Below, piece by piece: positions 1,336 through 49,372 of a stretch of 64,000 nucleotides of DNA. The notes under the pieces were generated by a model. It was given only the letters and a program-made list of their open reading frames with translations, was not told the DNA's origin and did no database searches. Positions within the stretch are counted from its first letter, which is position 1, and each line of letters starts with the position of its first letter. Made by a program: the position numbers and the translations under genes. The stretch spans positions 1,302,001 through 1,366,000 of the forward strand of contig NZ_WKJO01000001.1 in NCBI RefSeq assembly GCF_009674605.1, in the 5' to 3' direction. The DNA comes from Haloferax litoreum (GTDB lineage Archaea; Halobacteriota; Halobacteria; Halobacteriales; Haloferacaceae).

Positions 1336-2070
1336 TCACGCCGCATGTTCGAGGGCCTCGTGAATCGCCGCGTTGAGTTCCCGAAGACGCTCGCGGATTG
1401 GGTCGGCCAACTCCGCCGGTGGGTCGGTGAGTGCCGGTTCTCCCTCCGGGTCGGGCGTCCCGACGATGACGCTTCCAATCATCCCCACGAACTCGTGCGG
1501 GAGACAGAAGTAGTGATAGACGCCGGGCATCTCGAACGTCTTCTCGAACGTCACACCACCCTCGGTGATAATCTCGCTATTCCACGACGCTGTCCCGTCG
1601 GGGGTGAGTTGTGGTCTGTAGTTCTCCGGGGAGTACGACGTCGTCGAGTGGAACCCACGCTCGTTTGTCCACGTGACCGTCCCACCGACGTCGACCCAGC
1701 AGATGTGTGGTTCGAAGTGGTGTCCGGTCGCTGTGGTTACCATGCCGACGTCGGCACTGTCGAGTGGCCCAGTAAGTTGCTCGTCGTGTTCGTGACTGTC
1801 TTCGACGCGTTCCGCAGACTCCTCGTCGTCGTGGTGCTCATCCCCTCCGTGATGGTCGTCGACGTGATGCTCACTTTCTCCGTGGTGGTCGTTGACGTGA
1901 TGGTCGTCGACTTCAGCACCAGCGCCGCCTGTGTCCGTGGTCGTCGTCTGGCCCTCGCTCCCCTGCCCATCTGTCGTTACGGGCGCTGTCGTGCACCCTG
2001 CAAGCCCTGTGACCGTCGTCGTCCCTGCAAGAAGGAGGAACTGGCGGCGGTGAAGTTCGATATCGGACAT
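1336..2070 (-). CDS. Halocyanin-like blue copper lipoprotein with His-rich linker
   Basis: The ATG at 2070 is preferred over the longer open frame because GAGGTGAACGAG precedes it and a Tat lipobox signal follows (RRQFLLLAG...GLAGC). 244 residues. After the signal come a Thr/Gly linker and, at about residues 51-100, a stretch extremely rich in His-His pairs with Asp/Glu (DDHH, NDHH, HHVDDHHGGDEHH). The C-terminal half is a cupredoxin: GFHSTTS supplies the first His ligand and YHYFCLPHEFVGM the Cys, His and Met ligands of a type 1 copper site. Halocyanins carry electrons at the outer membrane face. The His tract is an unusual addition that probably binds Cu, Zn or Ni (inference). Neighbours are a Met-rich protein and a membrane regulator, suggesting a metal locus. 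Confidence 0.88.
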   Translation of the reverse strand: MSDIELHRRQFLLLAGTTTVTGLAGCTTAPVTTDGQGSEGQTTTTDTGGAGAEVDDHHVNDHHGESEHHVDDHHGGDEHHDDEESAERVEDSHEHDEQLTGPLDSADVGMVTTATGHHFEPHICWVDVGGTVTWTNERGFHSTTSYSPENYRPQLTPDGTASWNSEIITEGGVTFEKTFEMPGVYHYFCLPHEFVGMIGSVIVGTPDPEGEPALTDPPAELADPIRERLRELNAAIHEALEHAA

Positions 2071-2161
2071 CTCGTTCACCTCTGCTGAGACGTACGTGAC
2101 GAGTGGGTAAAACGGGATACAGTTCGTGCGGTGGAGAATATCCCCGAGTCGTCGGATAGGA

Positions 2162-2533
2162 TTAACAGCCCGGTCCACCGCCGTACATGCCACCCCCGCT
2201 ACCGTACATCCCGCCGTTTCCGTGACCGTACATGCCGCCGGGACTCCGTCCGGTGACTCCGGGCCCTCTCGGTCCGTCTTCAGCCATGAACTGTCCCATC
2301 TCTTCGACAGTCACGCCCATGTGTGATTCCATCCATTCGACCGCACCGGGTCCCATGTGTTGGGCCATGTGCGTCTCCATCCACGCGGTCCACTCGTCGG
2401 CGGTTCCGTCGTACGGTGGCGTATCGTCTGTCGCGCTGTCGGTTCCGTGGGCACTGACGACGGACGCGCTGAACGCGAGTCCGACGACTGCGAGTACCAC
2501 GAGCACCAATCGTCCGGTTGTGAGTTGGGTCAT
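2162..2533 (-). CDS. Secreted Met-rich small protein
   Basis: The ATG at 2533 is chosen because a GAGGCGAAC precedes it and the protein then begins with a Sec-type signal (MTQLTTGRLVLVVLAVVGLAFSASVVSAHG). 123 residues. The mature part carries repeated Met and His spaced as WMETHMAQHM, WMESHMG, EEMGQFM, then a glycine-rich tail with three GGMYG units (GGMYGHGNGGMYGSGGGMYGGG) and a final Cys. I do not recognise a named family. Met-rich, His-containing exported proteins typically bind Cu(I) or Ag(I). It lies between the His-rich cupredoxin gene and the membrane regulator at 2761-3357. Both fit a copper-binding role, which is inference. Confidence 0.75.
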   Translation of the reverse strand: MTQLTTGRLVLVVLAVVGLAFSASVVSAHGTDSATDDTPPYDGTADEWTAWMETHMAQHMGPGAVEWMESHMGVTVEEMGQFMAEDGPRGPGVTGRSPGGMYGHGNGGMYGSGGGMYGGGPGC

Positions 2534-2600
2534 TGTCGTTCGCCTCGGTTTCTCGTAGGGTGGCCCGGTGGTTATCGTCGTGGGTGTGAACAGAGTCAGG

Positions 2601-2620
2601 AGAACGTTCGAGAACGTTTC
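2601..2620. promoter_or_regulatory. Tandem AGAACGTT repeat, candidate operator
   Basis: Two adjacent 10-bp units, AGAACGTTCG and AGAACGTTTC, each contain the palindrome AACGTT. They sit 68-87 bp upstream of the Met-rich gene start (2533), and a TATA-like GATAAC lies near 2568 between them. This is a plausible activator or repressor site for the membrane-bound winged-helix protein encoded just upstream. No binding data exist here. Confidence 0.4.
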
Positions 2621-2760
2621 TAGACTTCTCTCGTCGTTTCTCAGCGACAGAATCGTTCGTGTCGGGAGAATCCGAGACGTGCGCGCTCGGCCTCTCGACA
2701 GCAACTGCTGTCCCGGATATTCTGTGGGTGAGTCGCACTGAGTCGTGGCGAGGGGGACGG

Positions 2761-3357
2761 TTACTGCACCTGATTTTGTGACAGGTCGTCATCGGGATAG
2801 ATGCGGTACGTCCGTCCCTGTCGCTCGCGGTAGAGCAGTCCGCGCTTTTCGAGTTCGCTCACGGTCTGACTCACTTTGCTCTTCGAGAAGTTCGACCGGT
2901 CGCGGAGTTCTATCTGCGTGATTCCCGGTGACGTGAGAATCGGTTCGAGAACGCGGCGCTCGTCCTCGGGCAGGACGTCGAGTAGACGCGGGCGAGGACG
3001 CTCGTTCGCACCGGTCGTCACGTCAGTCTCGCCGGTTGTCGTCGTTCCCGCATCCTTCGAATCCGGTGATGCGTCGTCTTCGCGTCTGTGCTGTTCAGTC
3101 TCTCCGCCGCTGGCTGTGAGTTCACGCCGGAACGCGAGGTACACGCCGCCAACCGCTCCCGCGAAGAGGACCGCACCGAACACGTACCAAAGCGGGTTCG
3201 TGCCGTGTACCGCCGACATCGACGTCCCCATCATCGACCCCATCGTCTGGTCGAGCGCGCGGTTCTGCTGATAGGTCTGCCACGCGAGTGCGCCGCCCAA
3301 GACGAGGACGGCCGCGACGACGAAGCTAACGGCGACATCAGCACGCCGTCTGTTCAT
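2761..3357 (-). CDS. Membrane-anchored winged-helix regulator with Met-rich outer loop
   Basis: 198 residues. MNRRR then a first membrane helix (about 8-26), a roughly 30-residue loop holding MGSMMGTSMSAVHG, a second helix (about 56-76), a charged linker of about 50 residues, and a C-terminal MarR/DUF7343-like winged helix (about 125-190: EPILTSPGITQIELRDR, SKSKVSQTVSELEKRGLL, YRIYPDDD). By the positive-inside rule both termini are cytoplasmic and the Met/His loop faces outside. Such proteins are one-component regulators. The loop could sense an extracytoplasmic metal, which would suit its Met-rich and His-rich neighbours. It is the first of the run of minus-strand genes and has a 227-bp gap to the Met-rich gene. 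Confidence 0.8.
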   Translation of the reverse strand: MNRRRADVAVSFVVAAVLVLGGALAWQTYQQNRALDQTMGSMMGTSMSAVHGTNPLWYVFGAVLFAGAVGGVYLAFRRELTASGGETEQHRREDDASPDSKDAGTTTTGETDVTTGANERPRPRLLDVLPEDERRVLEPILTSPGITQIELRDRSNFSKSKVSQTVSELEKRGLLYRERQGRTYRIYPDDDLSQNQVQ

Positions 3358-37697: not shown

Positions 37698-38435
37698 TTA
37701 GAGCAGTCCAGTCGTCTGCGCGTAACTCGCGAGGAACTGGACTGCGTTGAACAGACCGTGAGCGACGGCAGCGACGAGGAGATTGCCACTCTGCTCGTAG
37801 ATAATCGCGAGGACGCTCCCGAGGACGAACACCATCCCGAGCGAGATGAGCATCCCTTCACCCGAGAACGACCAGAGGTGGATAGAGGCGAACACCGCAC
37901 TCGACAGAACGACGGCCGGGGCTGGCCCCCAGAGGCGGCGGAGTTCGCCGTACGCGATACCTCGGAAGATGAGTTCTTCGGTCGGACCTACGAGGAAGAT
38001 AGTGACAGCGGTGAGATAGAGGAAGTACACCGGATTCTCACGGCCCTGTTGTGCCAGGACGCTCTCTCCGCTCTGGATGTCGAGGAGGTTCATCAGCGCC
38101 GTCGCGGCGAGGTAGACGACGAGAAGCGCGAACAGACCGCCGCCAATCCACAGCATGTCTCGCTTCGAGGGGCGTTCGAGGCGGATGATGTCCCAGTCGT
38201 CGCGGGACGCGAGGTACGCGAGTCCGACGACGCCGAAGCCGACGAACTGTCCCGCGCTGGCGATGGCGTCTACGAGCGGGTCTGACGGGGCGAGGAACCC
38301 TCTCCCGATTCCGCTCGCGACGGCACCGAACATCGCACCGACGATAAGCGCGAGGGCGACGACGATGATGATACCGCCGTACGCCTGGAGGTGGTCGCTG
38401 GGACTCGCCGACGAGTGGGCGGAGTCGTGTGCCAT
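37698..38435 (-). CDS. CPBP-family intramembrane metalloprotease
   Basis: 245 residues; ATG at 38435 preceded by AAGGGAGACC. Seven to eight membrane helices. The CPBP/Abi motifs are complete: GPTEELIFRGIAYGEL (EExxxR, about 155-170), FASIHLWSF (His) and AHGLFNAVQF (HxxxN). Enzymes of this family cleave transmembrane or prenylated proteins. The target is unknown. Convergent with nob1, 18 bp apart. Confidence 0.9.
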   Translation of the reverse strand: MAHDSAHSSASPSDHLQAYGGIIIVVALALIVGAMFGAVASGIGRGFLAPSDPLVDAIASAGQFVGFGVVGLAYLASRDDWDIIRLERPSKRDMLWIGGGLFALLVVYLAATALMNLLDIQSGESVLAQQGRENPVYFLYLTAVTIFLVGPTEELIFRGIAYGELRRLWGPAPAVVLSSAVFASIHLWSFSGEGMLISLGMVFVLGSVLAIIYEQSGNLLVAAVAHGLFNAVQFLASYAQTTGLL

Positions 38436-38577
38436 TGGTCTCCCTTTCGGAAGCAGACCGGATAACGGATTCGGGTCAGGTCGCGTTCGACGTCGCCGTC
38501 TGTTCACGCCCGAGAGACAGTCTGGAATCTGTCAACCTACCGTCGCTCCTAACGTGATAGAGGACCTATACGATGTG

Positions 38578-39603
38578 ATGAGTGCACCTCAGCAACTTCA
38601 CGAGTTGCTATCCGAGGGGAACGAACTCAACATCGTCTGCCACAACAACCCTGACCCAGACTGTCTCGCGAGTGCCCTCGCGTTGGGGCGAATCGCCGCT
38701 GCTGCCGGCGTCGATGAGTCACACATCCACATCCTCTACGATGGAGATATCTCGCACCAGCAGAACCGCGCGTTCGTCAACCTCCTGGATATCGACCTCG
38801 GTAAGTTCGACCCGAAGACTGTTCGAGACCGTCCTCCAGAGTCGTTGCTCGCGTTCGTCGACCACTCGATTCCCGGTGCGAACAACAGAGTCCCGAAGGA
38901 CACGCCCATCGATATCGTCATCGACCACCATCCGGCGAACGGTATCGACGCACGATTCGTCGACCACCGAGAGCACATCGGTGCCGCGGCGACCATCCTC
39001 ACCGAGTACGTCGAAGCACTCGACATCGACATCGACGAGGCGCTAGCGACGGCACTCCTGTTTGCGATTCGTCGCGAGACGCTCAATTTTCTCCGGAGCG
39101 TGACCCGCGAAGAATACGAAGCGGCGGCGTTTCTCCACGAGTCAGCGGACCACGAACTACTCCGCCGATTGTCGGCACCGTCGTTCACGGGGGAGACGCT
39201 CGATGCGATTGCGACTGCCATCGGCAATAGAAGAGTAAAGCGTTCGGTCCTCGTCTCGCACGTCGGCCGAACCACCGAGCGGGATGCACTACCACAGGCC
39301 GCGGACTATCTTGCGACCTTAGAGGGTGTCGAAACGGCCATCATCTTCGGTGTCATCGACGACGCAATCCAACTCAGCGCTCGGTCACCAGACCCGCGTA
39401 TCCACGCTGGCAACGTCCTCAGAAAAGCGTTCAGCGACGTGGGGAGCGCCGGCGGACACCACGACGTCGCGGGCGGTGAAATCCCGCTCGGCATCTTTGG
39501 CGACTACACGAGTGACGACGAGACGTTGCTCCGAATCGTCGAAGAAGTCGTCACTGCACGTCTCTTCGCAGAACTCAAGATAGCCGACGAGTCCAATAAA
39601 TGA
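38578..39603 (+). CDS. DHH-family phosphoesterase (NrnA/RecJ-like)
   Basis: 341 residues from the ATG at 38578 (MSAPQQLHELL); a GTG at 38554 eight codons upstream is possible. Metal-binding motifs of the DHH domain: VCHNNPDPDCLASALAL (about 19-35), FVDHSIPG and VIDHHPANG. The DHHA1 half has GSAGGHHDVAGGEIPLG with the substrate-binding GGHxxAxG. Such proteins hydrolyse short oligoribonucleotides, cyclic dinucleotides or pAp. It differs from replication GAN/RecJ in length. Substrate cannot be set from the sequence. Confidence 0.9.
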   Translation: MSAPQQLHELLSEGNELNIVCHNNPDPDCLASALALGRIAAAAGVDESHIHILYDGDISHQQNRAFVNLLDIDLGKFDPKTVRDRPPESLLAFVDHSIPGANNRVPKDTPIDIVIDHHPANGIDARFVDHREHIGAAATILTEYVEALDIDIDEALATALLFAIRRETLNFLRSVTREEYEAAAFLHESADHELLRRLSAPSFTGETLDAIATAIGNRRVKRSVLVSHVGRTTERDALPQAADYLATLEGVETAIIFGVIDDAIQLSARSPDPRIHAGNVLRKAFSDVGSAGGHHDVAGGEIPLGIFGDYTSDDETLLRIVEEVVTARLFAELKIADESNK

Positions 39604-48523: not shown

Positions 48524-49372
48524 TCAGGTACCGACCGACCGAACCTGCTGTCCAATCACCTCACGCTTTCGCCACCCGACCACCGCGACGGCGACGAGGA
48601 TCGTGAGGTAGAACGCGTACCACCTGACCTGCTGGGACGGCGCGAGCACCTCGCCGGTGAGGTTAATCATCAGGTGGAAGAGGATTGCCGCGAGGACGCT
48701 CCGGTCGGTGTTGTCGTAGAGCCACGCGTACAGCGTCTCTAAGAAGACGAACGTGGCGAAAAAGCGCCAGACGATTGGCTGGTACGACGCCTGACTGTAG
48801 TAGCCGTCCATCAAGAACAGCGGGATGTGCCAACTCGCCCAGACGACACCGCTGACGACACCCGCAACTGTCGGGTTCCAGACGGCGATGAGTCGGTCCA
48901 GAAAGTACCCTGTCGAACCGGTCTCTTCGACCAGTCCAGCGCCGAGCGTGAACCCGAAGAAGGCGAACAGACTCAGCGGCGTCACCAGTCGTTCGAGCGC
49001 CTCGGTGGGGTTCAGCGGGGTGGTCTCGGCACCGACGAGAGCGGCGATTCCGGCGGCGGTCAACGTAATCGCCGGATACAACCCCACGATGACGAGTGAC
49101 CACCGCGGGCGGATTCGCCGAACGTCGACGATGCGGTTCCCAAGTCGTCGGAGGCCAGCGACACCGCTGCGGCGGTACACCATCAGGATGCCCCCCAACG
49201 CGGGACTGATAGCACCGACGTAGAACAGGAGGACGTTCGGGAACGTCCAGACGCTCTGTCCGGAGAGAACGACGAGACTCCAGAAGAACCACGCCCATCC
49301 GAGGTAGATGGCGACGTAGCCCACCAACCCGCGTTTTCCCGCGAAGATGGTGCGGGTCGCTGTCTTTCCCAT
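48524..49372 (-). CDS. CPBP-family membrane protein with altered EExxxR motif
   Basis: 282 residues, about eight membrane helices. Motifs: GLVEETGSTGYFLDRL at about 148-163 in place of EExxxR (the Arg is absent), VVWASWHIPLFLM (His, about 182-194) and AILFHLMINLTGEV (HxxxN). Loss of the Arg suggests reduced or changed protease activity, though the two His sites remain. Compare the complete CPBP protein at 37698-38435. Confidence 0.85.
   Translation of the reverse strand: MGKTATRTIFAGKRGLVGYVAIYLGWAWFFWSLVVLSGQSVWTFPNVLLFYVGAISPALGGILMVYRRSGVAGLRRLGNRIVDVRRIRPRWSLVIVGLYPAITLTAAGIAALVGAETTPLNPTEALERLVTPLSLFAFFGFTLGAGLVEETGSTGYFLDRLIAVWNPTVAGVVSGVVWASWHIPLFLMDGYYSQASYQPIVWRFFATFVFLETLYAWLYDNTDRSVLAAILFHLMINLTGEVLAPSQQVRWYAFYLTILVAVAVVGWRKREVIGQQVRSVGT

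Follow-up and report, generated by a model that had tools for sequence, protein, structure and literature searches.

Extracytoplasmic metal sensing is the textbook domain of histidine kinases. CusS, SilS and PcoS, which belong to two-component systems, sense soft metals through Met and His residues in an extracytoplasmic region between two transmembrane helices. In CusS this region holds a Met triad and a His stretch, and one-component regulators are expected for cytoplasmic metal only (PMC10100754). Transmembrane transcription regulators (TTRs), defined by a DNA-binding domain and at least one transmembrane region in one protein, include ToxR, TcpP, CadC and the archaeal ArnR/ArnR1, which join membrane helix(es) to a cytoplasmic DNA-binding domain; the TTR census uses neither the word copper nor the word metal (PMC10269533). 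The archaeal copper regulators of the CopR/Lrp-TRASH type (VNG1179C, P. furiosus CopR) are cytosolic proteins with a TRASH domain, encoded beside Cu ATPases and CopZ. SilE and PcoE are periplasmic metal sponges: small, exported, likely disordered proteins with Met/His motifs, of which SilE motif 1 opens with MxxH (PMC5008109).

The locus described here lies near the start of the window, the whole 64,000-nucleotide stretch of Haloferax litoreum DNA that was analysed. It is minimal, comprising a regulator, a Met-rich protein and a halocyanin-like protein, with no ATPase. The first-pass annotation had placed three neighbouring minus-strand genes here; the genes are real, their coordinates are right, and they are conserved as proteins in other genomes. 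Its reading of the locus as a one-component metal-sensing system gains support from a conserved neighbourhood and from a candidate target element before the Met-rich gene. Judged from sequence, the regulator is probably a membrane-spanning one-component sensor of Cu(I)/Ag(I), and the Met-rich sponge operon would be its main target. If true, copper is sensed outside the cell by one small protein, without the usual two-protein relay, and the union of an outer Met loop and a winged helix in one protein would break the division of metal sensing between kinases and one-component regulators. The reading also proposes functions for a "MarR family" protein, a "hypothetical protein" and a widespread copper cassette. 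A search of the open literature found no earlier description of the regulator system.

A predicted membrane winged-helix regulator

The regulator gene (2761-3357, minus strand) encodes 198 amino acids, read from Pfam, 50 orthologues and AlphaFold as two transmembrane helices, an outer Met/His loop, a variable linker and a C-terminal winged helix. A two-helix membrane protein with a winged helix at its cytoplasmic end had been proposed earlier, and the Pfam matches to DUF7343 and MarR_2 and the AlphaFold helices agree with it. The predicted DNA-binding domain occupies 2788-2988 (minus strand; residues 124-190), and its wHTH at residues 130-186 matches DUF7343 (7.5e-10) and MarR_2 (5.2e-9) in Pfam. 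The MarR winged-helix core passes the curated Pfam cut-offs (MarR_2, 36.6 bits vs 27; MarR, 29.8 vs 24.6), and public records name the protein only "MarR family". Because the long N- and C-terminal dimerisation helices of soluble MarR proteins are absent from the regulator, which has a transmembrane hairpin instead and a wHTH standing alone after the linker, the domain content identifies a MarR-like wHTH protein and not a classical MarR protein. The AlphaFold model has helices at residues 3-39 and 55-82, and between them the chain turns over the Met motif. Its pLDDT is 80-90 in the membrane parts; the wHTH is poorly modelled (pLDDT about 45-50).

The outer loop spans 24 residues and contains the metal-type motif MGSMMGTSMSAVHG (3202-3243, minus strand; residues 39-52). 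Five of the six Met/His/Cys residues of the protein, the initiator Met excluded, fall within 13 residues, a clustering that is beyond chance (shuffle P=0.00015). The ligands are well kept among 87 orthologues dereplicated to 50 at 90% identity: M39 in 49/50, M42 in 47/50, M43 in 48/50, M47 in 45/50 and H51 in 48/50, with G52 and P55 both in 50/50. Mean identity in this set is 86% for the wHTH, 77% for the loop motif, 51-56% for the helices and 14% for the linker. Cysteine occurs in 0/50 orthologues, so the conserved soft-metal ligands are confined to the loop. If both predicted helices span the membrane, an outside position of the Met loop is forced, since the C-terminal wHTH has to be cytoplasmic. 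Among 197 sampled genomes from the phylum, full-length matches are confined to Halobacteriales, and genomes beyond that order match almost solely in the wHTH.

Compared with CusS, SilS and PcoS, the protein would keep soft-metal sensing between two helices but unite sensor and DNA-binding domain, with no kinase or response regulator; Pfam and NCBIfam find neither a histidine kinase core nor a response regulator domain in it. By prediction, it carries the DNA-binding domain and transmembrane region in one protein that define a TTR. The HTH of ArnR is N-terminal (PMC13286277); that of the regulator sits at the C-terminus, behind the two helices and the Met loop. Unlike the CopR/Lrp-TRASH proteins, the regulator is predicted to be membrane-bound, has no Cys and gives no Pfam match to the TRASH domain.

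Exported partners and gene neighbourhood

The Met-rich gene (2162-2533, minus strand) encodes a putative Cu/Ag sponge, with a signal peptide followed by 94 mature residues that include 10 Met, 4 His and 1 C-terminal Cys. Its M/H motif count was equalled in 0/10,000 shuffles. Across the partner proteins, a C-terminal Cys is found in 40/42, and in 41/42 the mature part holds a single Cys, which might act as a ligand, a cross-link or an attachment point. The protein has zero Pfam, NCBIfam or PDB matches, and hence no detectable homology to SilE or PcoE, from which it also differs in its GGMYG repeats and single C-terminal Cys. Like them it is small, likely disordered and equipped with Met/His motifs, here MxxHM, and it would work in the manner of SilE as a non-homologous counterpart.

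The third gene (1336-2070, minus strand) starts at the ATG at 2070; a longer ORF from a GTG at 2193 is not needed. Its product shows a Tat/lipobox N-terminus (RRQFLLLAG...LAGC), a His-rich spacer of HH/D tracts and a Copper-bind domain (Pfam, 7.6e-10, 39.5 bits vs a cut-off of 21.2), in which the type-1 Cu ligand set His-Cys-His-Met is visible. The NCBIfam halocyanin match is partial and misses its cut-off (46.9 bits vs 93.8), and the predicted blue-copper lipoprotein is for that reason called halocyanin-like. With the HH/D tracts, the MxxHM/GGMYG motifs and the clustered loop Met/His, the metal-type residues that had been noted in all three proteins are borne out, the clustering by shuffles. 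Two related genes (68% alike) lie downstream of the locus, within 2-1050: one at 280-1050 for a DUF3179 lipoprotein, the other cut at the window start. DUF3179 genes are also found downstream in Hfx. profundi, Hfx. marinum and G005.

Conserved co-occurrence of the three gene families had been proposed as a check on the reading, which a missing neighbourhood would have refuted; co-occurrence holds for two of them. In a sample of 98 relatives, with regulator presence counted at E<1e-40, the regulator is found in 30/98 and the Met-rich protein in 31/98, and both in 28, so that the pair is present in 28/30 regulator genomes (Fisher 7e-19 over genomes, uncorrected for relatedness). Within the genus Haloferax, 10 genomes have both genes and 5 have neither. 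The halocyanin gene, by contrast, keeps its position next to the pair in Hfx. profundi, Hfx. marinum and G005, with a diverged form in G047; it is a feature of a few chromosomal loci in Haloferax plus one further genome, and in most relatives a SHOCT protein takes that position.

A census of 80 regulator loci (±8 kb, tblastn for the Met-rich gene, identities checked by domain) recovers the Met-rich gene most often (70 loci), then a SHOCT Met/Gly-rich membrane protein (62) and an ArsP/YHS permease (59). DUF302 (45), cupredoxin-SHOCT (33), an Lrp/AsnC-type regulator (25), multicopper oxidase (20) and CopZ (13) follow, and thioredoxin-like, DoxX and Csp-like genes are also among the neighbours. 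Of the 10/80 loci at which tblastn finds no Met-rich gene, two (L140 and L142) have a diverged partner. A copper-type P-ATPase lies in 15/43 dereplicated regulator loci, against a chance expectation of roughly 2-3% derived from 5 such genes in the 3.56-Mb genome of Hfx. litoreum. By their domain assignments, then, the cassette neighbours are usually copper genes, namely Cu P-type ATPases, CopZ, multicopper oxidase, cupredoxins, SHOCT and DUF302.

The exported partner ranges from Met-rich to His-rich, the latter in L057, L058, L140 and L142. The regulators of L057, L058 and L140 have His-enriched outer loops (3-4 His vs 0-1), and all three are paired with His-rich partners. This co-variation (3/3, Fisher 9e-4) is suggestive of sensor and sponge having switched metal preference together, but it comprises just 1-2 independent phylogenetic pairs and is not relied on as evidence.

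A conserved promoter element

A conserved element at 2600-2660, absent from the first-pass annotation, precedes the Met-rich gene. Its core (2600-2617, minus strand) is a tandem repeat, ACGTTCTCGA ACGTTCTC, with a 10-bp period, and begins 85 nt before the Met-rich start codon. Additional repeats of the same array lie upstream (2618-2660, minus strand), GAACGaTTC with ACG at -123 and AAACG with ACG at -104. Of 34 dereplicated loci, 31 have ACGNT at -123 and 33 have it at -104; the -104 copy in the window reads ACGAC. The tandem element ACGnTCTCGAACGnTCTC (AACGTTCTCGAACGTT) begins exactly at -85 from the Met-rich start in 34/38 dereplicated loci, with at most 3/14 mismatches, at a chance rate calculated for equal base use of about 4e-5 per position. 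Its position is constant whether the regulator lies 0.2 or 8 kb away.

The core can also be read as a palindrome, AACGTTC-nn-GAACGTT, at 2603-2618. Sequence statistics favour the tandem repeat ACGnTCTCgA-ACGnTCTCcT over this reading, although both are possible. In some loci a change at position 5 recurs 10 bp further along, and L059 has a tandem ACGTT repeat without a palindrome; given these, a purely palindromic operator is not preferred. The sites of ToxR and TcpP are likewise direct repeats, spaced by about one helical turn.

Distribution of the element suggests that it marks the Met-rich operon. The exact sequence is a single copy in the 3.56-Mb genome, at 2600-2617. The element is present before the strongly diverged His-rich partners of L057, L058 and L142, and in G042, where the regulator is on a separate contig, a perfect copy precedes the Met-rich gene. 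Scanning with a position matrix yields a single strong site at each locus, at the Met-rich promoter, and in the loci covered no strong element upstream of the regulator gene or ATPases; autoregulation and direct ATPase control by the regulator are accordingly set aside. Weaker matches with 2 mismatches occur in the window at 38815-38832 and 49229-49246 (minus strand). Of three near-matches checked, two lie inside ORFs, that at 49229 among them, and the one at 38815 is on the 5' side of the ORF at 37701-38531.

The placement of the element bears on whether the copper islands are governed by a different protein altogether. The regulator could be constitutive or respond to another signal, its Met loop passive or structural, while a cytosolic Lrp-TRASH-type regulator controls the island. 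Lrp/AsnC-type genes at 25/80 loci would suit this, as would the haloarchaeal sensor VNG1179C, which governs a Cu ATPase and chaperones (PMC3551603), and the silver RNA-seq of Hfx. alexandrinus, where lrp, copA and copZ are induced together with petE and a SHOCT membrane protein (PMC10694973; these genes may belong to the cassette). The element, however, sits at the Met-rich promoter and not at the ATPase or CopZ promoters, and most loci pair the regulator and Met-rich gene without a nearby Lrp gene, which makes this explanation unlikely. Where Lrp-type proteins are present, they are possibly a complementary cytosolic sensor beside a membrane regulator.

Conservation extends beyond the core to the entire leader, from -127 to -1. 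The leader (2543-2590, minus strand) contains TTCACACCCA at 2581-2590, a candidate TATA sequence GATAAC at 2571-2576 and a GAGG Shine-Dalgarno at 2543-2546, and its pattern TTCACACCCA....GATAAC....TACGA..AACCGAGG is conserved across genera nearly as well as the regulator element. A small upstream ORF in the leader was rejected, as many loci have ACG, AGG or AAG in place of its ATG and several carry stops. A structured RNA leader was also rejected, with folding z-scores of -0.03 to -1.21, nothing unusual.

Such broad conservation is what a general promoter or leader feature would give, or an element bound by another factor, with the regulator linked only by hitch-hiking on copper islands. G055 is compatible with this, as it keeps the element and Met-rich operon with no detectable regulator. 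Two other regulator-less genomes, G016 and G024, lack the element before their Met-rich homologues, though both are weak controls (one match is truncated, the other aligned only from residue 16). Their lack of it, the uniqueness of the exact element in its own genome and the fit of tandem half-sites to a multimeric wHTH protein all argue against another factor, a quite improbable reading on this balance. Recognition by the regulator remains preferred, and the conserved promoter element is consistent with a regulator acting on promoters from the membrane.

A proposed route from outside metal to a probably mobile copper cassette

We infer metal binding, DNA binding, dimer signalling and the sponge function of the system as follows. 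On the outer face of the membrane, the 4 Met and 1 His of the loop between the regulator's two helices would capture an extracellular soft metal, of which Cu(I) is the likeliest and Ag(I) would mimic it. Metal capture would shift the seating of the helix pairs in a dimer and so be relayed to the cytoplasmic winged helices. These would recognise the tandem ACGnTCTC repeats, which lie 67-127 nt ahead of the Met-rich gene, and turn on the operon, which in this genome would comprise the Met-rich sponge and the His-rich halocyanin and in most relatives the sponge with SHOCT, DUF302, thioredoxin and cupredoxin proteins. The products of the operon would then trap metal beneath the S-layer ahead of its entry.

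The direction of control is a guess that tilts modestly to activation over repression, since the TATA candidate, the invariant GATAAC, comes downstream of the repeats. In many relatives, AAACGnTTAGA at about -106 to -96 offers a possible alternative TATA region, which is not found in the window; its use would place the repeats over the start site and imply repression. Copper specificity rests on the neighbour genes, and the actual signal could instead be Ag, Hg or the oxidation of Met. Least likely of the explanations weighed is a regulator whose loop Mets undergo oxidation by hypohalites or by radicals that copper generates, with the sponge operon repairing or buffering the damage: Met-only loops are oxidisable and the thioredoxin-like, DUF302 and DoxX neighbours are equally compatible with an oxidative-stress role, but His51 and Gly52 are conserved next to the loop Mets, the Met-poor loops of L057, L058 and L140 and their partners are His-richer, as ligand exchange explains better, and the neighbours include copper ATPase, CopZ, Csp-like and multicopper oxidase genes.

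Metal sensing by the outer loop is thus the favoured account. In its fullest form, which we put forward tentatively, this haloarchaeal membrane winged-helix protein with a Met/His outer loop might be the first one-component extracytoplasmic Cu/Ag sensor, controlling a sponge/cupredoxin operon through one conserved tandem-repeat promoter, with the operon spreading between genera on near-identical copper islands.

Two copper-resistance islands share 96-99.9% DNA identity over 8-16.6 kb across many haloarchaeal genera (L122-L131 and L097-L113; Haloarcula, Halorussus, Halorhabdus, Halosegnis and Halohasta, and Halorubrum, Halobellus, Natrinema and Halosimplex). Their near-identity in sequence points to recent horizontal spread. 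The named record for the L122-L131 island is L225, on plasmid pHMA155 of Haloarcula marismortui (E6P14_RS00530/RS00535), and cultured carriers of the regulator system also include Haloferax denitrificans, Hfx. prahovense and Hfx. larsenii.
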